Shown one piece after another: positions 16,342 to 37,358 of a stretch of 37,358 nucleotides of DNA; within the stretch, counting starts at the first letter, position 1; each line of letters starts with the position of its first letter. The position numbers and the translations under genes were made by a program. The notes under the pieces are model-generated. The model did not search any database. It was not told the DNA's origin and worked only from the letters and a program-made list of their open reading frames with translations. The stretch is from contig JAHJMN010000081.1 in the NCBI GenBank assembly GCA_018821305.1, forward strand, positions 1 to 37,358. Reading direction: 5' to 3'. This DNA comes from Myxococcota bacterium (GTDB taxonomy: Bacteria > Myxococcota_A > Polyangia > HGW-17).

Positions 16342-19300
16342 CTAATTTAAACGTTCAGGCAGTTTTTGAATGATTTTTGACCGGAGAGCCTGAAGTTTCC
16401 GGACGGTTTCCCTTTCTTTCATGAGCATTTCCTGTACCTGCTTGTTAGCCTTTTCAACTTCAATACGAGCTTTACGTTCGCTAGCTGCACTGAGTTGAAC
16501 GAGATAGGCGGCTCTCCGGGCTCTCCGGGTGGCCGCTTCTGCCTGTTTAGTTGCTTCTTCTGCATTACGCAGGGCTGCAAGAAGTTTGGAGTTTGACTCC
16601 TGAAGCTTTTTCTGTGCAAGTTTTTCCTGATCACGTGCAGCTACAACTTCTTTCAATCGCTGGGAAGCAAGATTTTCTGCTCTTTTTGCCTTATCAGTCT
16701 CTTCAGCGAGGAGAACCATCTTCTTCTTAACTTCCTGCTCAGCTTCTGAAGCACGTTTCGCTTCCATTTTTGCGTTCTTTGCAGCGGTTCTGGCGGTTTT
16801 TTCAGCTCCACGAATTGCAAAGAGTGCAGCAATGGCACCGATGGTAACAAGGGCCATTACTGTAATTGCAGTGATAATGAGAGCTTTTTTGATTCTCTTA
16901 CTGCGATCTGCCATTCGAAATGCAGAGTCGAGATATTCTTTCTCAAGGTGGGTAAGACCTCCCTGATACTTTTTCAGCCAGAGTCTTGCTTCTTCAAGAG
17001 TGTCACCGGTCCAGAGGAGTCCTGATGGCTTTCCGCGAAGCTCCCACTGTTTGGTAACATCTCTTAAAGCCTGAAGCATGGCGGCATTTTCGTTGTCTTC
17101 TTCAAGCCATCGTTTCAGGGTTTGCCAACGAGCGATGAGACTTTCGTGAACAATTTCAACCTGTGCATCTTCACTGTGCTCTCCAATGGTTGAAATTGTA
17201 AGAAGGCGGGCTGCGGCGAGAGTTCTGAGTACCCGCGCTGCCGCTTCAGGACCCATAATTGAACTGATTTCACTTACGGTGATAACAGCTCTAGTGCCGT
17301 CGGAAGTAACCAGTCGCTGGAACAGGCGTTTACACGACAGTTGGTCAGCGGTGGTCATTCCTGAAAGAACGTTATCCGCATGACGGGCAAGAGCACCACC
17401 GACACCGCCCATTTCTTCATATACCCGGCGGGAAAGGATTTTACGGCTTTTATCACGGTTTTCCCATAACTTGGATGCCGTAAACTGGAGAAGCGGAAGC
17501 GCCGCCGGTTCATCCCTCAGGGAGCCTACCATTTCTTCAACCATGTGAGGATCTTCGAAGGAATATCCCATCAAAGAAGCAGGCCGGATTATTGCTTCAT
17601 GAAGTCCTGCGGGCCCCGGGGACTGGAGGATTGTAACGTCTTTAGTTACTGCCTCCATCAGTTCTTCGTATTCGGCAACACGATCGAGAAAGTCAGAACG
17701 CATTGCTAAAACCGCACGTACGGGGACTTCAGGATCGGTAGCACTGCCGGCCAGAGCTGTTGTGAACCTCATGGCATCATCGGAAGTAACTAAAGTGAAT
17801 GTCTCCTCAAACTGGTCAACGAAGAGCATAACGGGATGACCCGTGGTCCTTGCTCTTGCCCGGAGAAGGGTTCCCAACTGTCCCGGTTCATGACGAAGCC
17901 TGTTTGCCAGTTCATGTTCTTCATGTACCGCGGAAGAAGTAGCCGTGGACGAGCCACCTTTAAGTAAGCTCCCCGCCAGAGCGGCAAATGGATCGCGACC
18001 GGGTCTGATGACGATCATATCCCATGGTTTTTTACCTTGACGCTTGATACTTGGGATAACACCGGCTCGAATAAAGGATGATTTACCAGCGCCGGAAGGT
18101 CCAATTACCGCCAGTATGCTGTTTTCTTTAAGTTTATTGATGAAACGACTGATTTCAGCATCGCGGCCGAAGAACTTGTCTGCATCTCTTTCCTGGAAAG
18201 AACTGAGGCCCGGATAGGGGCTCTCGGATTCACTGAGGCGTCGGCCCATGCTTCGATTCGGGTCAGCATTTTCAAGATCACTGAGAAGTTCACCAATACT
18301 CTGATATCTGCGTGCCTTGCGTTTTTCGAGGCATTTAGAAATAATTTCAGAAATTTCATTAGGGATTGTAGGATCGATTTCTTTAACGTTGCGAAGGGGA
18401 ACGTCAAGACGTGATGCGGCTTCTGCAAGGGTCTGAGCTGCCCTTGTGCCAACGGGGTGTTCCCCGGTGATCATTTCGAATAAAATGACACCGAAAGCGA
18501 AAATATCGCTGAGTGCATCGACTTTATCCATACCCCACTGTTCCGGAGACATGTAGGCGTATGTTCCCATAATCGCACCGGCTTTGGTGAGATCCTGACG
18601 GGCCCCCGTATCGGAAGCAAGTTGCTTCTGGATTTCGTCTTTTGATCCGCCTTCTTCTTCGGTTCCGAGCATTTTAGCCAGACCGAAGTCGAGAACCTTA
18701 ACGTTGTTGTCTTTGAGAACGAAGATATTGTCAGGTTTGAGATCCCGGTGGATAATACCCTTGGTGTGTGCAGCCTGAAGTGCTTTAACAACGGGAATCG
18801 AATAATGAAGGGCCTGCTGAACGGGAAGTTTACGGCCTTTGATTACCTTAGTGAGTGGAACACCCTCGAGGTATTCTAAAACAAGATATGAACTGCCTTG
18901 AAATTCACCAACGTCGTAAATTGTAACTACGTTTTCATGGTTCAGTTTAGCTGTAACCTGGGCCTCAATTTCAAAACGCTGGCGGAATTTTTCTTTCCCG
19001 GAGATTTTTTTTGAAAGAAACTTAATGGCAACTTTACGACCAAGTTTCGTATCATGGGCAACATACACAGCGCCCATCCCTCCACGACCGAGAAGGCGTA
19101 TGATTTCGTACTTGAAAACCATTACACCGGGAGTAAAAACATCCTCGTTTTTCGGGAAACCTGTGGCCGTGGACCCCTGCTGCCCCCGGACACCGAATTT
19201 TTCCTGACCCTGACGGATGATTTTGTTTCCGATGGCGGAATCCGCGATAATGGGCTGGGTGAAACTGACTTTGCTGTTGTCCTTTGAAGCATCTCCGGAA

Positions 19301-32322: not shown

Positions 32323-33513
32323 CTACCGGAGGGTGAGGAACTTTTGCTGTAAGATATAAGTGTTATGGAAGCCTCTTCGGCGATTTCTGTTGTTTCCCCT
32401 GAAAATTGCTACCTGAATACCGGCGGATTTGCACAGGGGGCATGTGCAATTTTCCCAGGGGCGAGCTTCTAAAGTTCGGCGATAGTGTTTAAGGCGCGAG
32501 ATACCGTCTTCAGAATAAAAATTCTCATAGTTTTCTAAAAGACCCATGACGGTTTCAATGTCTGTTTTATGATCTCCGAATTCTCTCAGGGATTGCAGGA
32601 CTTTCTGCTCAAGATTCAGGGCTTTTTTGATCTTTTCTTCCGGCATGTTTTTCATTGGGCCGCGCTTTCCCTCGGGAGAAGGAACCCTGATCGCGCAATA
32701 GTCGCCATCCGGCATGTGGAAATTATCCGTGGAGCCCATCCATGCCCTGCGAAGAGCTGAAGCACTGTCTACACTGAAAATGCTTTTTTCACGATAGAGA
32801 TCAAAAAGTGGTGGCCGTGCGACGCCAAAAAGGTGGATACGTGTTTCAGCATGGATAACTTTTCGGATTTCCGTTACGATTTCAGTTATTTCTTCGTTTC
32901 GCTTGCGTACGAGGCCTCCGATGGCGAGATATCGATATCCCATCTTTTCAAGTTTTGCGGCGCAAACACCATATGTTTCACTATCCCAACCCTGAACAGC
33001 TCCCATGGGGGCCCAGGCCGGTTTCAACTTGCGGTGCATCCGGATGAACTCATCGGCATTTTTAATCGTGATATCATAGCGCAACTGTCGATCAGGATGA
33101 TCCGGTCCGGGTATGAGATGATCGATGCTCACACCAAAATCAAAACCACCAGCGGTGTAGTAATCAATGACTTCCGAAGTTGTGTAAGGAGGCAGTTTTT
33201 CTTCAATGTATCCAAAAGCGCCGCAATCACCCATAACGGGAAAATCCGGACGCACCCGCAGGGCACCTTTTACCCCAAGTTCCCGGGTACGCTTTTTGCG
33301 CAGGGCACTTTTCTCCTCCACTACTTTTGAAACTAAAATGCCGTCATAGGGCGGAGGGCTCATGAGTTCGTGAGCATAGGCGGAGTTGGCCCATCCTTTT
33401 CCCTTTTGCGTGTCCGTAATAAAATCATAGTTGGGATCCACCAGATCATCCCAGTCAGGAATGAAATGCCAGGTGCCCGCTGTATCAAGGAACTCATTGG
33501 GGTTAAAAGTCAT
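32323..33513 (-). CDS. dpdA: DpdA-like tRNA-guanine-transglycosylase-family protein
   Basis: Base-exchange enzyme of the TGT superfamily. Asp96 (MGDCGAFGYI) fits the general base. Asp249 (FSVDSASALRRAW) fits the nucleophile. GAVQGWDSETY followed by YLAIGGL matches the substrate-binding segment of TGT. Cys356, Cys358, Cys361 (CTCPLC) and His383 (FHNTYILQ) form the family's zinc site. The opening FIPDWDDLVDPNYDF and the overall pattern resemble DpdA proteins, which put preQ0 into DNA, more than bacterial Tgt, which uses preQ1 on tRNA. That assignment rests on memory of the family, not on a search. It overlaps the gene upstream by four bases (ATGA). No dpdB or dpdC lies nearby. Confidence 0.75.
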   Translation of the reverse strand: MTFNPNEFLDTAGTWHFIPDWDDLVDPNYDFITDTQKGKGWANSAYAHELMSPPPYDGILVSKVVEEKSALRKKRTRELGVKGALRVRPDFPVMGDCGAFGYIEEKLPPYTTSEVIDYYTAGGFDFGVSIDHLIPGPDHPDRQLRYDITIKNADEFIRMHRKLKPAWAPMGAVQGWDSETYGVCAAKLEKMGYRYLAIGGLVRKRNEEITEIVTEIRKVIHAETRIHLFGVARPPLFDLYREKSIFSVDSASALRRAWMGSTDNFHMPDGDYCAIRVPSPEGKRGPMKNMPEEKIKKALNLEQKVLQSLREFGDHKTDIETVMGLLENYENFYSEDGISRLKHYRRTLEARPWENCTCPLCKSAGIQVAIFRGNNRNRRRGFHNTYILQQKFLTLR

Positions 33514-34181
33514 GGGTTTTCCAGCAGATTCAGAATATTCTCGTGAGTATTTAGAAGGAAAGTTTGTTGAAAGTCCTGTCTTTGCCGGGTGCGGTCTAAA
33601 ATACGAGCAGTTAAAAGACCTTTCAGGGCCACGAGGGTTGCTTTAAAACGACGAGCCTCAGGCATCCCCAGTCGAAGTGCCTTGCTTTTATCCGGCGCTG
33701 CTGACGAAGGCGCACAGAGAAAAAGACTTGTGGAAAACGATTCATCCGATGGGATATCAGCGGCTGTGAGATAGGAATCACCCAGTGCAAAAATTACTCC
33801 TTCAGCGCTTTTTGACGCCGCAATAATTTTTTCACTGATCCCCAGTTTACGGCTCCAGGACTGAATAAACTTTTTTGATTTTCCTGAAAACGTAAAGTCG
33901 TATGCCGGAATCAACTGATCTCCACTTATAAGTCCGAGTCCAGCGCTTAAAATATACACATCAACGCGGCCCCCGGCGTTTCGATAGCGCTTTACGCCTT
34001 CCATGAGGAACTTGTGCTGCATTCCCGTGTACATTTCTTCTGCTTTTTTCAGTTCAAAACCCTCTGGAAGAGTTCCGGAATTTGCGTAATTTTCCAGATC
34101 TGCATCAGTAAGGCCGGCTTGCAAAGCCTTTTTTCCCGTACATGAGGTTATTACTGCGAGATGAGGCAGGTTTTTATTCAT
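33510..34181 (-). CDS. DUF6884-like protein in preQ0 operon
   Basis: The start is taken at ATG 34181 (223 residues). An upstream TTG would extend it but lies deeper in folE2. The N-terminal half fits the DUF6884 pattern: HLAVITSCTGKKAL, AEEMYTGMQHKFLMEG, VDVYILSAGLGLISGDQLIPAYDFTF in pieces. These show a strand ending in Ser-Cys with two Lys, and a Ser-Ala-Gly-x-Gly-Leu loop with a distant Pro-Ala-Tyr-Asp. The C-terminal 80 residues are helical. The biochemical function is unknown. It overlaps folE2 by eight bases and the dpdA-like gene by four, so its production is coupled to the pathway. A role with the transglycosylase, for example DNA or substrate handling, is inference. Confidence 0.7.
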   Translation of the reverse strand: MNKNLPHLAVITSCTGKKALQAGLTDADLENYANSGTLPEGFELKKAEEMYTGMQHKFLMEGVKRYRNAGGRVDVYILSAGLGLISGDQLIPAYDFTFSGKSKKFIQSWSRKLGISEKIIAASKSAEGVIFALGDSYLTAADIPSDESFSTSLFLCAPSSAAPDKSKALRLGMPEARRFKATLVALKGLLTARILDRTRQRQDFQQTFLLNTHENILNLLENP

Positions 34182-34974
34182 CGCCCCGTGTCCACGTCGT
34201 AACGGCAAATGCTTTGTGATTATGAATGCTTTCGTCGTTTACTGCCGTTACTTCATACCACCCAACCCGCTCATCTTCACGGAGTCTTACGGCGGTGTTT
34301 CGAACCATGTCTTCCACGAAAACGGGATTGTCGTAGGCCTGCATGGTAACAAAACGTTCATCTTCACGTTTTAAAAGGGCATAAATGGGCGCCGAGGCAC
34401 TGGCTTCAGCTGTTTCAAAAAGCTCTTCCAGCCAGATATGCCTGAAGTTGTCCGGACCATCGAAAATCGGCTGTACTTTCATCGTGATAATTCCACGCTG
34501 ATTGTGGGCTCCATAATCGGATACTGCTTTTGAGCAGGGGCACAGGCTTGTTACGGGGACTGCTGCCTCTAAAATGAAATCAATTTTGTCACCATCGGCG
34601 GAAATATGAAATGCGCACTGATATTCCATGAGACTTGGAGAACCACTCACAGGGGCCGCCTTTTCAACGAAATATGGAAAACGCACTTCAAGATGCGCTT
34701 TTTCCGCATGCAGGCGACGCTGAACTTCGCGAATCATCCCCGGAAGCGCATCGGCAGTAATATTGTGATGAAAATCGCTGAGAATGGTAACAAAGCGACT
34801 CATGTGAGTGCCTTTAAATTCCTTAGGAAGATCAACACTGATGCGGAAACGTCCAACGGTCTGCTGGGTTTCCCGGGCTCTGTCCGAAACGCTGATGGGC
34901 CAGAGAATATCAGTTATCCCCACGTGATCAATGGGAATCTGCCGATGATCATGGCTGCTCTGAACATCTTCCAT
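34174..34974 (-). CDS. folE2: GTP cyclohydrolase FolE2 (type IB)
   Basis: Converts GTP to 7,8-dihydroneopterin triphosphate plus formate, the first step of preQ0 (and folate) synthesis. I place the start at ATG 34974: GAGGAGG precedes it and the opening MEDVQSSHDHRQIPIDHVG is the usual FolE2 N-terminus, whereas the longer frame runs into queD. The catalytic region has TSLCPCSKAVSDYGAHNQRG, with the metal Cys near residue 147 and the following His. The 267 residues are normal. It begins one base after the queD stop. FolE2 is the form less dependent on zinc than FolE. This copy belongs to the deazaguanine operon and may not serve folate synthesis. Confidence 0.95.
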   Translation of the reverse strand: MEDVQSSHDHRQIPIDHVGITDILWPISVSDRARETQQTVGRFRISVDLPKEFKGTHMSRFVTILSDFHHNITADALPGMIREVQRRLHAEKAHLEVRFPYFVEKAAPVSGSPSLMEYQCAFHISADGDKIDFILEAAVPVTSLCPCSKAVSDYGAHNQRGIITMKVQPIFDGPDNFRHIWLEELFETAEASASAPIYALLKREDERFVTMQAYDNPVFVEDMVRNTAVRLREDERVGWYEVTAVNDESIHNHKAFAVTTWTRGDE

Positions 34975-34975
34975 G

Positions 34976-35347
34976 TTAATCCTCCTCACCGAAATAATCA
35001 CACCGGGAGGTATCGGTTTCGTAAACTGTAACTCTGTGGAGACCCTGAATGTTGTTTTCAAGGCGCTTCCACAGCCAACGGGCGAGTACTTCACTGGTTC
35101 CGTCTTCAAGACCAGGGATATCATTCAGATACGTGTGGTCGAGTTCTTCCACAAGGGGTTTTACGACCTTTGATATGTCTTTGTAATCCATGAACCAGGC
35201 GGTTTCATCGGGAACCTGACCCCGGACTTCCACATCAAATTTGAAACTGTGTCCGTGCAGGTTGCGGCATTTGTGTCCGTCGGGGGCTTTGGGAAGGCAG
35301 TGAGCAGCTTCAAAGCCGTAACTTTTTGATAAATGAACTGTATGCAT
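34976..35347 (-). CDS. queD: 6-carboxytetrahydropterin synthase QueD
   Basis: Turns dihydroneopterin triphosphate into 6-carboxy-5,6,7,8-tetrahydropterin, the second step of the preQ0 pathway. The 123-residue size is typical. The zinc-binding histidines are in FEAAHCLP and CRNLHGHSF; the Cys of that segment is the catalytic residue. ELDHTYLND and the late Glu in VTVYETDTSRCDY complete the active site. A GGAG ribosome site precedes the ATG. It lies 21 bases after queE and touches folE2. Confidence 0.95.
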   Translation of the reverse strand: MHTVHLSKSYGFEAAHCLPKAPDGHKCRNLHGHSFKFDVEVRGQVPDETAWFMDYKDISKVVKPLVEELDHTYLNDIPGLEDGTSEVLARWLWKRLENNIQGLHRVTVYETDTSRCDYFGEED

Positions 35348-35368
35348 AAAGTACTCCGATGCTCTCTT

Positions 35369-35995
35369 TTATGGTACGTCGATGACCTTGTGAAGTTGAA
35401 TCTGGAGTCTCAGGGTTGGAGGCCCTTCCGCTAAAATCCAGCGGGCAAGAACTCCTGCGTCGAGGAGTGGACTCACCGGACTGGCGATTTTGCGGAATGG
35501 ACCATCATATTCCCTGATGATTCTGAGAGCATTTTCAAAATCATCGCGGTCCGCAATGGGAAACTTGACTTCATCGTTCTCATCCAGAATTGCGAAATTG
35601 GATGTGAGCATCCGGGCGTCTTCACCGGAAGACGGTCCTTTGAAGTCCATGATAATGTGTACACTGTGAGGGACTTTATCAAGGGGTAAAGCACCGCTTG
35701 TTTCGAGTAAAACGGTAAAACCCTTTTCGCAAAGAGCTGAAAGCAGTTCGATTGCCCCTTCCTGAGCAAGGGGCTCCCCTCCGGTAACTTCAACGATGTT
35801 TCCTCCCATGAAGACGATATTATTAACGATATCGAGGATATCCAGTTCTTTGCCTTCTGCATTGCGGGCATGGGGCGTGTCACACCATCGGCAATTCAAA
35901 GGGCAGCCGGCTAATCGTATGAAAATACACGGGTAGCCTTGAAAAGAACTCTCACCCTGAATGGACTTGAATATCTCATAAACCCGGACTTTCAT
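35369..35995 (-). CDS. queE: 7-carboxy-7-deazaguanine synthase QueE
   Basis: Radical SAM enzyme that rearranges carboxytetrahydropterin to 7-carboxy-7-deazaguanine. The iron-sulfur cluster motif is CPLNCRWCDT (Cys-x3-Cys-x2-Cys), followed by the SAM-binding VTGGEPLAQEG. The opening YEIFKSIQGESSFQGYPCIFIRLAGC is characteristic. The family's short cluster-loop form is present; the 208 residues are normal. AGGAAAA upstream of ATG inside the end of queC and the four-base ATGA overlap show coupling. Confidence 0.95.
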   Translation of the reverse strand: MKVRVYEIFKSIQGESSFQGYPCIFIRLAGCPLNCRWCDTPHARNAEGKELDILDIVNNIVFMGGNIVEVTGGEPLAQEGAIELLSALCEKGFTVLLETSGALPLDKVPHSVHIIMDFKGPSSGEDARMLTSNFAILDENDEVKFPIADRDDFENALRIIREYDGPFRKIASPVSPLLDAGVLARWILAEGPPTLRLQIQLHKVIDVP

Positions 35996-36681
35996 TTTTT
36001 TTCCTGATATTTCGTGGGATCTGCAACGCCGGCTTCTTCAAAACCCTTTCGGCGAAGTACGCAACTGTCGCAACGACCGCAGGCAAGCATGTTTTCATCG
36101 GGACTGTAGCAGGTATGAGTCAATGAATAGTCAACACCGCAGGAAATGCCGAGTTTTATGGTTTTGCCTTTTGTAAGATGCAACAGGGGGGCGTGGATAT
36201 TGATTTTTCCCCCTTCAAGAGCAATTTTGGTGGCATTGTTTGCAAGATTTTCAAAAGCTTCAATGAACTGGGGGCGACAGTCCGGATAACCCGAGTAATC
36301 CACGGAGGAAACACCGATGAAAATATCGCGGATGTCGAGAGATTCACAGTAAGCAAGGGCATAACTGAGAAAAATCGTATTTCGGGCTGGAACATATGTT
36401 GAAGGAACTCCTTTTTCGTCAATATCCTCACGATCCATGGGAATCACGCCATTTCCCGTAAGGGCACTGGATCCGAAAACTGCTTTGGGAAGTTCAATTA
36501 TTATATGGTCTTTTACATTAAAAAATGCGGCAATTTCTTTTGCTGCCTGAATTTCACCCGTGTGAAGTTGCCCGTAACTGAAGCTCAGGCAGACAGGGTC
36601 AAACCCGCTTTTTATTGCATGACCAAGGCATGTTGTGGAATCAAGTCCACCACTTAAAAGAACGATAGCCCGATTTTTCAT
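35992..36681 (-). CDS. queC: 7-cyano-7-deazaguanine synthase QueC
   Basis: Uses ATP and ammonia to convert carboxydeazaguanine to preQ0. I choose ATG 36681 (229 residues): GAGGAG lies just upstream, while the longer frame from 36702 would place that ribosome site inside the coding region. The PP-loop is LLSGGLDSTTCLGHA at the N-terminus. Near the end, HTCYSPDENMLACGRCDSC supplies the four zinc cysteines. FSYGQLHTGEIQAAK and GYPDCRPQFIEAFENL are family segments. It is the first gene of the operon. No queF (preQ0 to preQ1) is present, so the local pathway stops at preQ0. Confidence 0.96.
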   Translation of the reverse strand: MKNRAIVLLSGGLDSTTCLGHAIKSGFDPVCLSFSYGQLHTGEIQAAKEIAAFFNVKDHIIIELPKAVFGSSALTGNGVIPMDREDIDEKGVPSTYVPARNTIFLSYALAYCESLDIRDIFIGVSSVDYSGYPDCRPQFIEAFENLANNATKIALEGGKINIHAPLLHLTKGKTIKLGISCGVDYSLTHTCYSPDENMLACGRCDSCVLRRKGFEEAGVADPTKYQEKK

Positions 36682-36751
36682 GAAAAACTCCTCGTAACTC
36701 ATTTAAATTCAGTAAGAAAAACATCTGAAAGAGTGCAGAGTAAAATAGTAA

Positions 36752-36836: not shown

Positions 36837-37080
36837 TAAACCGCTTTCGAGTATAAGGAACAAGAATAGAACAGTGAATATTTTCTTCCAGCCCTTGTAA
36901 TTTTACATTGATATTGGATGTTTATGACCTGAGCCTGAGCCTGTTTGCCTGACTTCCTGAGTCCCTGTTAAAAAATTTCAGGCATTCAGGTAAACAGTAG
37001 CAGGAACAGGATATCAGGGGCTCTTTCCTGAAGCATTTCTTTAAAATGATTCACAATTGTATTACTCATGAGCTGGTCTA
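36837..37080 (-). repeat. Family 1 MITE-like repeat, copy C
   Basis: A 244-base copy with ends TAAACCGCTTTCGAGTA and TACTCATGAGCTGGTCTA (imperfect inverted repeats). It lies in reverse orientation relative to copies A and B. The core has CCTG words, a TTAAAAAATTTCAGG loop and CAGG words that fold back on each other. Region 36703-36836 between queC and this repeat holds only the queC promoter and hairpin candidates. Confidence 0.82.
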
Positions 37081-37112
37081 GATTTTGCCATAGGACAGTA
37101 ACAATTAACACC
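37081..37112. repeat. 32-base spacer with family 2-like sequence between two family 1 copies
   Basis: The spacer contains AGGACAGTAACAATTAACACC, seen in pieces as the inner part of family 2 (AGGACAGTAACCGCAAGGTGTTAA). It suggests that one family inserted into or recombined near the other. It is too short for certainty. Confidence 0.35.
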
Positions 37113-37358
37113 TAGACCGCTTCATTAGTAAAAGGATCGAAATCTAAAAAGTGAATATTTGCTTCAAGTTTTTGTAATTTTATATTGATATTAGATGTTT
37201 ATGACCTGACCCTGTTACCTGTTTGCCTGACTACCTGAGTCCCTGTTAAAAAATTTCAGATAAACAGGAAATCAGTAGCAGGAACAGGAAATCAGGGGCT
37301 CTTTCCTGAAGCATTTCTTTAAAATAACTCACAATCGTATTACTTAGGAAGCGGTCTA
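37113..37358 (-). repeat. Family 1 MITE-like repeat, copy D (complete, at window end)
   Basis: A 246-base copy with the best terminal inverted repeats: TAGACCGCTTCATTAGTAA at the left and the complement TAGACCGCTTCCTAAGTAA at the right (17 of 19 bases equal). The core (about 37205-37300) is an imperfect palindrome: six CCTG words on the left arm face five CAGG words on the right arm around TTAAAAAATTTCAG. It contains no reading frame of note. The window ends on its last base. Confidence 0.85.

Follow-up and report, generated by a model that had tools for sequence, protein, structure and literature searches.

The 37,358-nucleotide contig JAHJMN010000081.1 of the Myxococcota bacterium assembly GCA_018821305.1 (the whole stretch analysed, hereafter the window) carries on its minus strand, at 32323–36702, six consecutive genes, queC-queE-queD-folE2-DUF6884-dpdA, which bring together the synthesis of 7-cyano-7-deazaguanine (preQ0), a short protein related to DpdC and, encoded last, the predicted DNA-guanine transglycosylase DpdA. 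DpdA swaps guanine for preQ0 in DNA, and we consider it probable that this preQ0 operon serves a base exchange in DNA that DpdA performs without DpdB, with the DUF6884 protein hydrating the inserted base to 7-amido-7-deazaguanine (ADG).

DpdA and a short relative of DpdC

The last protein of the operon is, judged by its sequence, a true DpdA. It passed the NCBIfam equivalog model NF041059 with twice the cut-off score (Table 1) over residues 16–392 of 396 and failed those for Tgt and TgtA (TIGR00432, 39.2 bits with a cut-off of 350; TIGR00449, 25.2 bits with a cut-off of 47.6), and its residues 16–391 align to the solved DNA-guanine transglycosylase 7ui4. The catalytic aspartates D96 and D249 and the zinc ligands C356, C358, C361 and H383 (CxCxxC...H) are kept and are invariant among the aligned DpdAs, as are columns R376–G381 of the retained RNRRRG(F/I/L)HN motif in the same alignment. 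In a maximum-likelihood tree of 98 rows, built by a quick method with Shimodaira–Hasegawa approximate likelihood-ratio (SH-aLRT) support only, bacterial Tgt (support 100) and archaeal TgtA (98) formed clades separate from each other. The window DpdA fell outside both and grouped with Myxococcota DpdAs (100) within a larger set of mostly DUF6884-fused DpdAs (96), and DpdAs accompanied by classic DpdC and DpdB made up one clade (96); the small tRNA-guanine transglycosylase (TGT) paralogues described below are long branches of unsure placement. A sequence-only reading of this DNA had already called the protein DpdA-like, with both catalytic aspartates and the zinc site; profile, 7ui4 alignment and tree agree with that call, and the grouping with tRNA Tgt or arcTGT that had been set beforehand as speaking against it was not seen.

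The DUF6884 protein lies barely above the gathering threshold of the Pfam family (31.9 bits for a threshold of 30) and is matched partially by the PADLOC DpdC models (best E 2.9e-9, residues 12–111 only), and in hhalign profile–profile comparison it aligned to classic DpdC with a probability of 99.35%. Its AlphaFold model (predicted local distance difference test score, pLDDT, 95.5) had Escherichia coli YaaA as its best structural match (PDB 5caj; Z 10.5, root-mean-square deviation 4.6, 182 residues; runner-up Z 7.6), and YaaA was likewise, if less clearly, the best match of a classic DpdC model (Z 8.4, next 7.0). The match to the DUF6884 model emerged only in a second look (VIA), a Foldseek search of the model in the PDB alone having given no significant match, and no solved DpdC relative was found by sequence search. 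The start methionine aside, six positions (Y, G, S, G, Y, Y) do not vary between DUF6884, DpdC and YaaA, and a C[ST]xxK motif, absent from YaaA, ends the first strand in the checked DUF6884 and DpdC sequences (C14-T-x-x-K18 in the window protein). Two aligned DpdCs are without it, that of Enterobacter, where the motif lies upstream of the annotated start, and that of locus L033, which was read from a start within the domain. For the annotated Enterobacter DpdC WP_168434909 (L041, about 18,950–19,060), CTNGK is found in frame upstream, and the start was apparently placed too late.

By sequence and structural model, then, the DUF6884 gene encodes a short DpdC-like protein, which is by descent no replacement for DpdB. 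Kinship with DpdB itself was ruled out, the protein matching DpdC and YaaA, and DpdB being of a different family. The sequence-only reading had held that DpdC was absent and that the DUF6884 protein replaces DpdB: the former was wrong in substance, given the PADLOC and hhalign matches and the shared residues, and the latter conflicts with the DpdC homology, the YaaA fold common to both proteins and the separate family of DpdB. A published survey associates DUF6884 with dpdC (PMC11888242). In phage records no DUF6884 was detected by sequence; phage DUF6884 proteins are similar to the window protein by fold.

In the mechanism that we propose, FolE2, QueD, QueE and QueC would convert guanosine triphosphate (GTP) into preQ0, DpdA would replace guanine in double-stranded DNA by preQ0 without DpdB, and the DUF6884 protein, as part of the same complex or working on that DNA, would hydrate the nitrile to the amide, yielding 2′-deoxy-7-amido-7-deazaguanosine (dADG). 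Some of the preQ0 would pass through QueF, Tgt and QueA into tRNA queuosine, one precursor pool thereby serving two nucleic acids. With no known cognate restriction module in the genome, the mark may be protective or epigenetic in function instead of being one half of a restriction-modification system. The base-exchange step is well supported by the predicted identity of DpdA, and the hydration step moderately so by the likeness of the DUF6884 protein to DpdC; the DNA substrate, the dADG product, the dispensability of DpdB and the function of the mark are what we infer from them.

Several points weigh against this proposal. The window protein departs from the classic full-length DpdC architecture, the C-terminal segment of about 70 residues being missing, and with this and the partial coverage by the PADLOC DpdC models its activity could differ, even though it has the DUF6884/YaaA-fold core with the common conserved residues and C[ST]xxK. 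As YaaA has the same fold and several of the motifs, homology alone is no proof of nitrile hydration. Finally, the lack of restriction genes was judged by DpdE, DpdJ and a single helicase profile only, in an assembly of 216 contigs.

Operon conservation and preQ0 supply

We compared 13 genomes of the same order (G000–G012, that of the window and 12 relatives). The full gene order is conserved in a congener (G001) and in G002, G003 and G005 of the same family, and G006 and G004 retain queD-folE2-DUF6884-dpdA with queC elsewhere, the dpdA of G004 being truncated by a contig end and beginning with the expected sequence. G009 has queE-queD-folE2-DUF6884 on one contig and dpdA on another, both genes being retained. 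DpdA and DUF6884 were both found in eight genomes, the window's included, and both missing in five (G007, 70% complete, G008 and G010–G012). Between two family members, the nonsynonymous and synonymous divergences (dN and dS) indicate purifying selection on dpdA (dN 0.15, dS 1.36) and on DUF6884 (dN 0.36, dS 1.04). Because gene order is kept in relatives and both genes are under purifying selection, the operon is not a chance arrangement.

The gene order and coordinates proposed earlier for the six genes were borne out (Table 1), and so was the lack of a queF among them, although a strong QueF is encoded elsewhere in the genome, on contig C75. The queC/queE and DUF6884/dpdA junctions are 4-base overlaps and the folE2/DUF6884 junction one of 8 bases; queE and queD are separated by 21 bases, and queD and folE2 by one. 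By Pfam and NCBIfam, queC, queE, queD and folE2 specify preQ0 enzymes. The start of folE2 was set at 34974 from the sequence, where GGAGG precedes it and queD ends 1 base before, and queC possibly starts at 36681.

Table 1. Genes of the operon, with the matches on which their assignment is based
Gene and product	Position	Strand	Evidence
queC, 7-cyano-7-deazaguanine synthase	35992..36702	-	Pfam QueC 231.9 bits; TIGR00364 (NCBIfam) above cut-off
queE, 7-carboxy-7-deazaguanine synthase (radical SAM)	35369..35995	-	rSAM_QueE_gams (NCBIfam) 205.9 bits, below cut-off 300; synteny in relatives
queD, 6-carboxytetrahydropterin synthase	34976..35347	-	Pfam PTPS 119.6 bits; TIGR03367 97.2 bits, cut-off 89.25
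folE2, GTP cyclohydrolase IB	34174..34974	-	NF010200 272.8 bits, cut-off 215
DUF6884 protein, 223 residues, short DpdC-like, YaaA fold	33510..34181	-	Pfam DUF6884 31.9 bits (gathering 30); PADLOC DpdC; hhalign; model
dpdA, DNA-guanine transglycosylase (predicted), 396 residues	32323..33513	-	NF041059 401.6 bits (cut-off 200); 7ui4 E 9.3e-72; tree

The window is an entire contig (C98) of a 5.2-Mb assembly that is 97.7% complete, and the closest named relatives of the genome are uncultured Myxococcota/'Deltaproteobacteria'. Neighbours of the operon within it (mfd, peptidyl-prolyl isomerases, dnaJ, a kinase-STAND protein and pyruvate kinase) are housekeeping or unrelated genes. Upstream of queC, at 36850–37358, direct repeats (141 and 88 bases, with a spacing of about 278 bases) reach the contig end, so that the assembly may have broken inside a repeat. 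No preQ1 riboswitch was found upstream of queC, where there were chance matches only, far below threshold.

QueC is single in the genome, the other match being below the cut-off, and queA-tgt lies on contig C57; with QueF, QueA and Tgt encoded apart from the operon, the queuosine of tRNA and the modification of DNA would draw on one preQ0 source, none but the operon being evident for either. An incomplete preQ0/queuosine pathway was ruled out, queF, queA and tgt all being present elsewhere in the genome. Its second Tgt, on contig C215 (L001:595-2598), is a canonical one fused to an MnmC2-like methyltransferase domain, and two Tgts are likewise present in G001 and G005, relatives of this genome. 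There is, in addition, a small TGT paralogue of 281 residues without the zinc CxC motif (L038:8473-10507 on contig C213; also L117-L124). Its gene overlaps a downstream tRNA (uracil-5-)-methyltransferase-like gene, a pair kept across the family and in G009, and the protein is about 30% like the second TGT of cyanobacterial dpd plasmids.

DpdB-less loci and alternative explanations

No match to the DpdB profile was obtained in any of the 13 genomes of the order, control genomes giving E values of 9.1e-169 (G085) and 1.9e-144 (G169). Profile searches found no DpdJ in the family and no full-length DpdE, the partial and generic SNF2-domain matches scoring about 100 bits versus 735 in a control. 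DpdD, F, G, H, I and K were not found beside the operon when the window was compared with Dpd reference proteins, a comparison that was not extended genome-wide. The operon thus falls outside canonical Dpd both by its lack of DpdB and by that of DpdE and DpdJ. For helicases like those of cyanobacterial dpd plasmids, the window's genome yielded a partial match of 215 bits, G002 and G003 yielded longer matches, and these may be housekeeping helicases. Genes flanking the operon vary between relatives, and conserved restriction genes beside it were ruled out on that ground. The absence of DpdB claimed in the sequence-only reading was therefore confirmed, and that of dpd restriction genes was upheld for DpdJ and full-length DpdE throughout, and for the other six next to the operon. 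Of the reduced, modification-only system envisaged there, a DpdA with its own preQ0 operon and no DpdB still stands, but not the missing DpdC or the DUF6884 protein as a DpdB stand-in.

Beyond the order, we took the best 80 of 301 candidate stretches by likeness to the window DpdA, a sample that is biased towards it. DUF6884 is fused in front of DpdA in 46 of these loci and is a separate gene in 12; a linked DUF6884 above threshold is absent from 14, as is DpdB, and the remaining eight have a classic DpdC. DpdB accompanies all eight classic-DpdC loci and is missing from the other 72, hence from all 58 with DUF6884. Loci without DpdB are accordingly the majority in this set closest to the window, and, if they modify DNA, DpdB would not be essential for base exchange. 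A known restriction gene or helicase occurs within 8 kb at 26/46 fused, 3/12 separate and 4/8 classic loci, counts that are minima owing to contig ends.

Some of these and other loci have features of their own. In fused DUF6884-DpdA loci L006, L007, L008, L162, L170 and L176, a second small TGT stands beside helicases or a large P-loop NTPase, and the many fused loci with such a gene suggest a two-TGT system with restriction. On an Allocoleopsis plasmid, outside the 80-locus sample, the fused gene is near one annotated DndB whose product is 20% identical to DpdB. Plasmid proteins of Deinococcus (L043:8001-9971, with dpdE and dpdF nearby) and Nostoc (L046:9869-11287) are annotated as DUF6884 and have a very divergent DpdA-like domain. 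Two putatively viral contigs from the viral collection (L210, L211) carry queC, folE2 and fused DUF6884-DpdA, L211 also having abundant short GC-rich repeats and a gene resembling phosphoadenosine phosphosulphate (PAPS) reductase after dpdA. A haloarchaeal plasmid, from Salinigranum, encodes a 739-residue DpdA with insertions (L009:11992-14211) next to a DUF6884 gene; it also has the complete set of preQ0 genes, a small TGT and a BREX-like ATPase.

Three other explanations were weighed. The operon could supply just the modification side of a complete restriction-modification system, with restriction genes of unrecognised families elsewhere in the genome, an arrangement compatible with the chemistry proposed above. 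The restriction neighbours of the fused loci would fit it, as would the DEAD helicases of G002 and G003, distantly like those of cyanobacterial dpd plasmids; yet the family has no DpdJ and only generic SNF2-domain matches to DpdE, the best helicase match in the window's genome is partial, and the operon flanks are not constant among relatives. We hold this explanation to be unlikely. Slightly less likely still is that the DUF6884 protein acts not as a hydratase but as a helper recruiting or activating DpdA on DNA, the job of DpdB elsewhere, so that the final base would be 2′-deoxy-7-cyano-7-deazaguanosine (dPreQ0). Among the 80 loci DUF6884 does occur only where DpdB is absent, often fused to DpdA, and E. 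coli YaaA, its nearest solved fold, is annotated as DNA-binding. However, DUF6884 is homologous to DpdC rather than DpdB and keeps the conserved residues of classic DpdC as well as C[ST]xxK, DpdC is reportedly required for dADG (PMC11888242), and the 14 loci with neither DpdB nor a linked DUF6884 above threshold point to the domain being dispensable for some DpdAs. Very improbable is a new route from preQ0 in which the two proteins modify tRNA or another RNA, as the sequence-only reading had alternatively suggested: homology links DpdA to tRNA-guanine transglycosylases, and no preQ0 source for queuosine is evident other than the operon, but the protein belongs to the DpdA clade and stands outside those of bacterial Tgt and archaeal TgtA, it matches 7ui4 over its length, and the idea is weakened by the genome's own queF, queA-tgt and second Tgt.

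Relation to known systems

DpdA, DpdC, preQ0 operons, islands without restriction genes and doubts over DpdB are already known. What the present data add, though part of it may be described already, is a clean split in the 80-locus sample between loci with DpdB and classic DpdC and DpdB-less loci with a short DUF6884 (a separate gene or a fusion), together with an operon, conserved in this myxobacterial family, that links the DpdB-less class to the only preQ0 supply. To be counted in a published survey, dpd islands had to have dpdA and dpdB together (PMC11888242), so that DpdB-less loci would go uncounted. We tentatively suggest, while leaning slightly towards doubt, that DUF6884-DpdA, fused or neighbouring, could form a second major, DpdB-free class of DNA 7-deazaguanine systems in a dozen or so bacterial phyla and in archaea, which in this myxobacterial family would be fixed, modification-only and dependent on a single preQ0 supply common with tRNA queuosine. 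If DpdB-less loci do modify DNA, a two-domain enzyme could be the smallest bacterial writer of ADG into DNA, useful in practice as a tool and a way to test directly what purpose DpdB has.

The Dpd system of Salmonella Montevideo consists of a dpdA-C synthesis operon and a dpdD-K restriction operon. The myxobacterial operon resembles it in the catalytic and zinc residues of DpdA, the adjoining DpdC-family protein and the proximity of preQ0 genes, and differs in that DpdB is absent, the DpdC-like protein is short, DpdJ and full-length DpdE were not found and four preQ0 genes share the operon with dpdA. Phages with DpdA and preQ0 genes, such as Rosebush and CAjan, carry much dPreQ0, and their DpdAs reportedly do not cluster with bacterial ones (PMC6884629); the combination of DpdA with preQ0 genes is common to them and to the operon, and DpdB is unmentioned in that report, but here a DpdC-like gene is present. 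With E. coli YaaA (PDB 5caj) the DUF6884 protein has in common the fold and the invariant Y, G, S, G, Y and Y, in contrast to an identity of 16% and to the missing C[ST]xxK cysteine of YaaA, which is annotated for peroxide stress and DNA binding. Closest in design are the fused DUF6884-DpdA loci of cyanobacteria, Paenibacillus and others, plasmid-borne and chromosomal, whose products are annotated 'tRNA-guanine transglycosylase DpdA'. Unlike these, the operon has two overlapping genes and no second small TGT or helicases adjoining them; like the 46 sampled, it has the same two domains in the same order and no recognised DpdB, and its DpdA groups with part of theirs.

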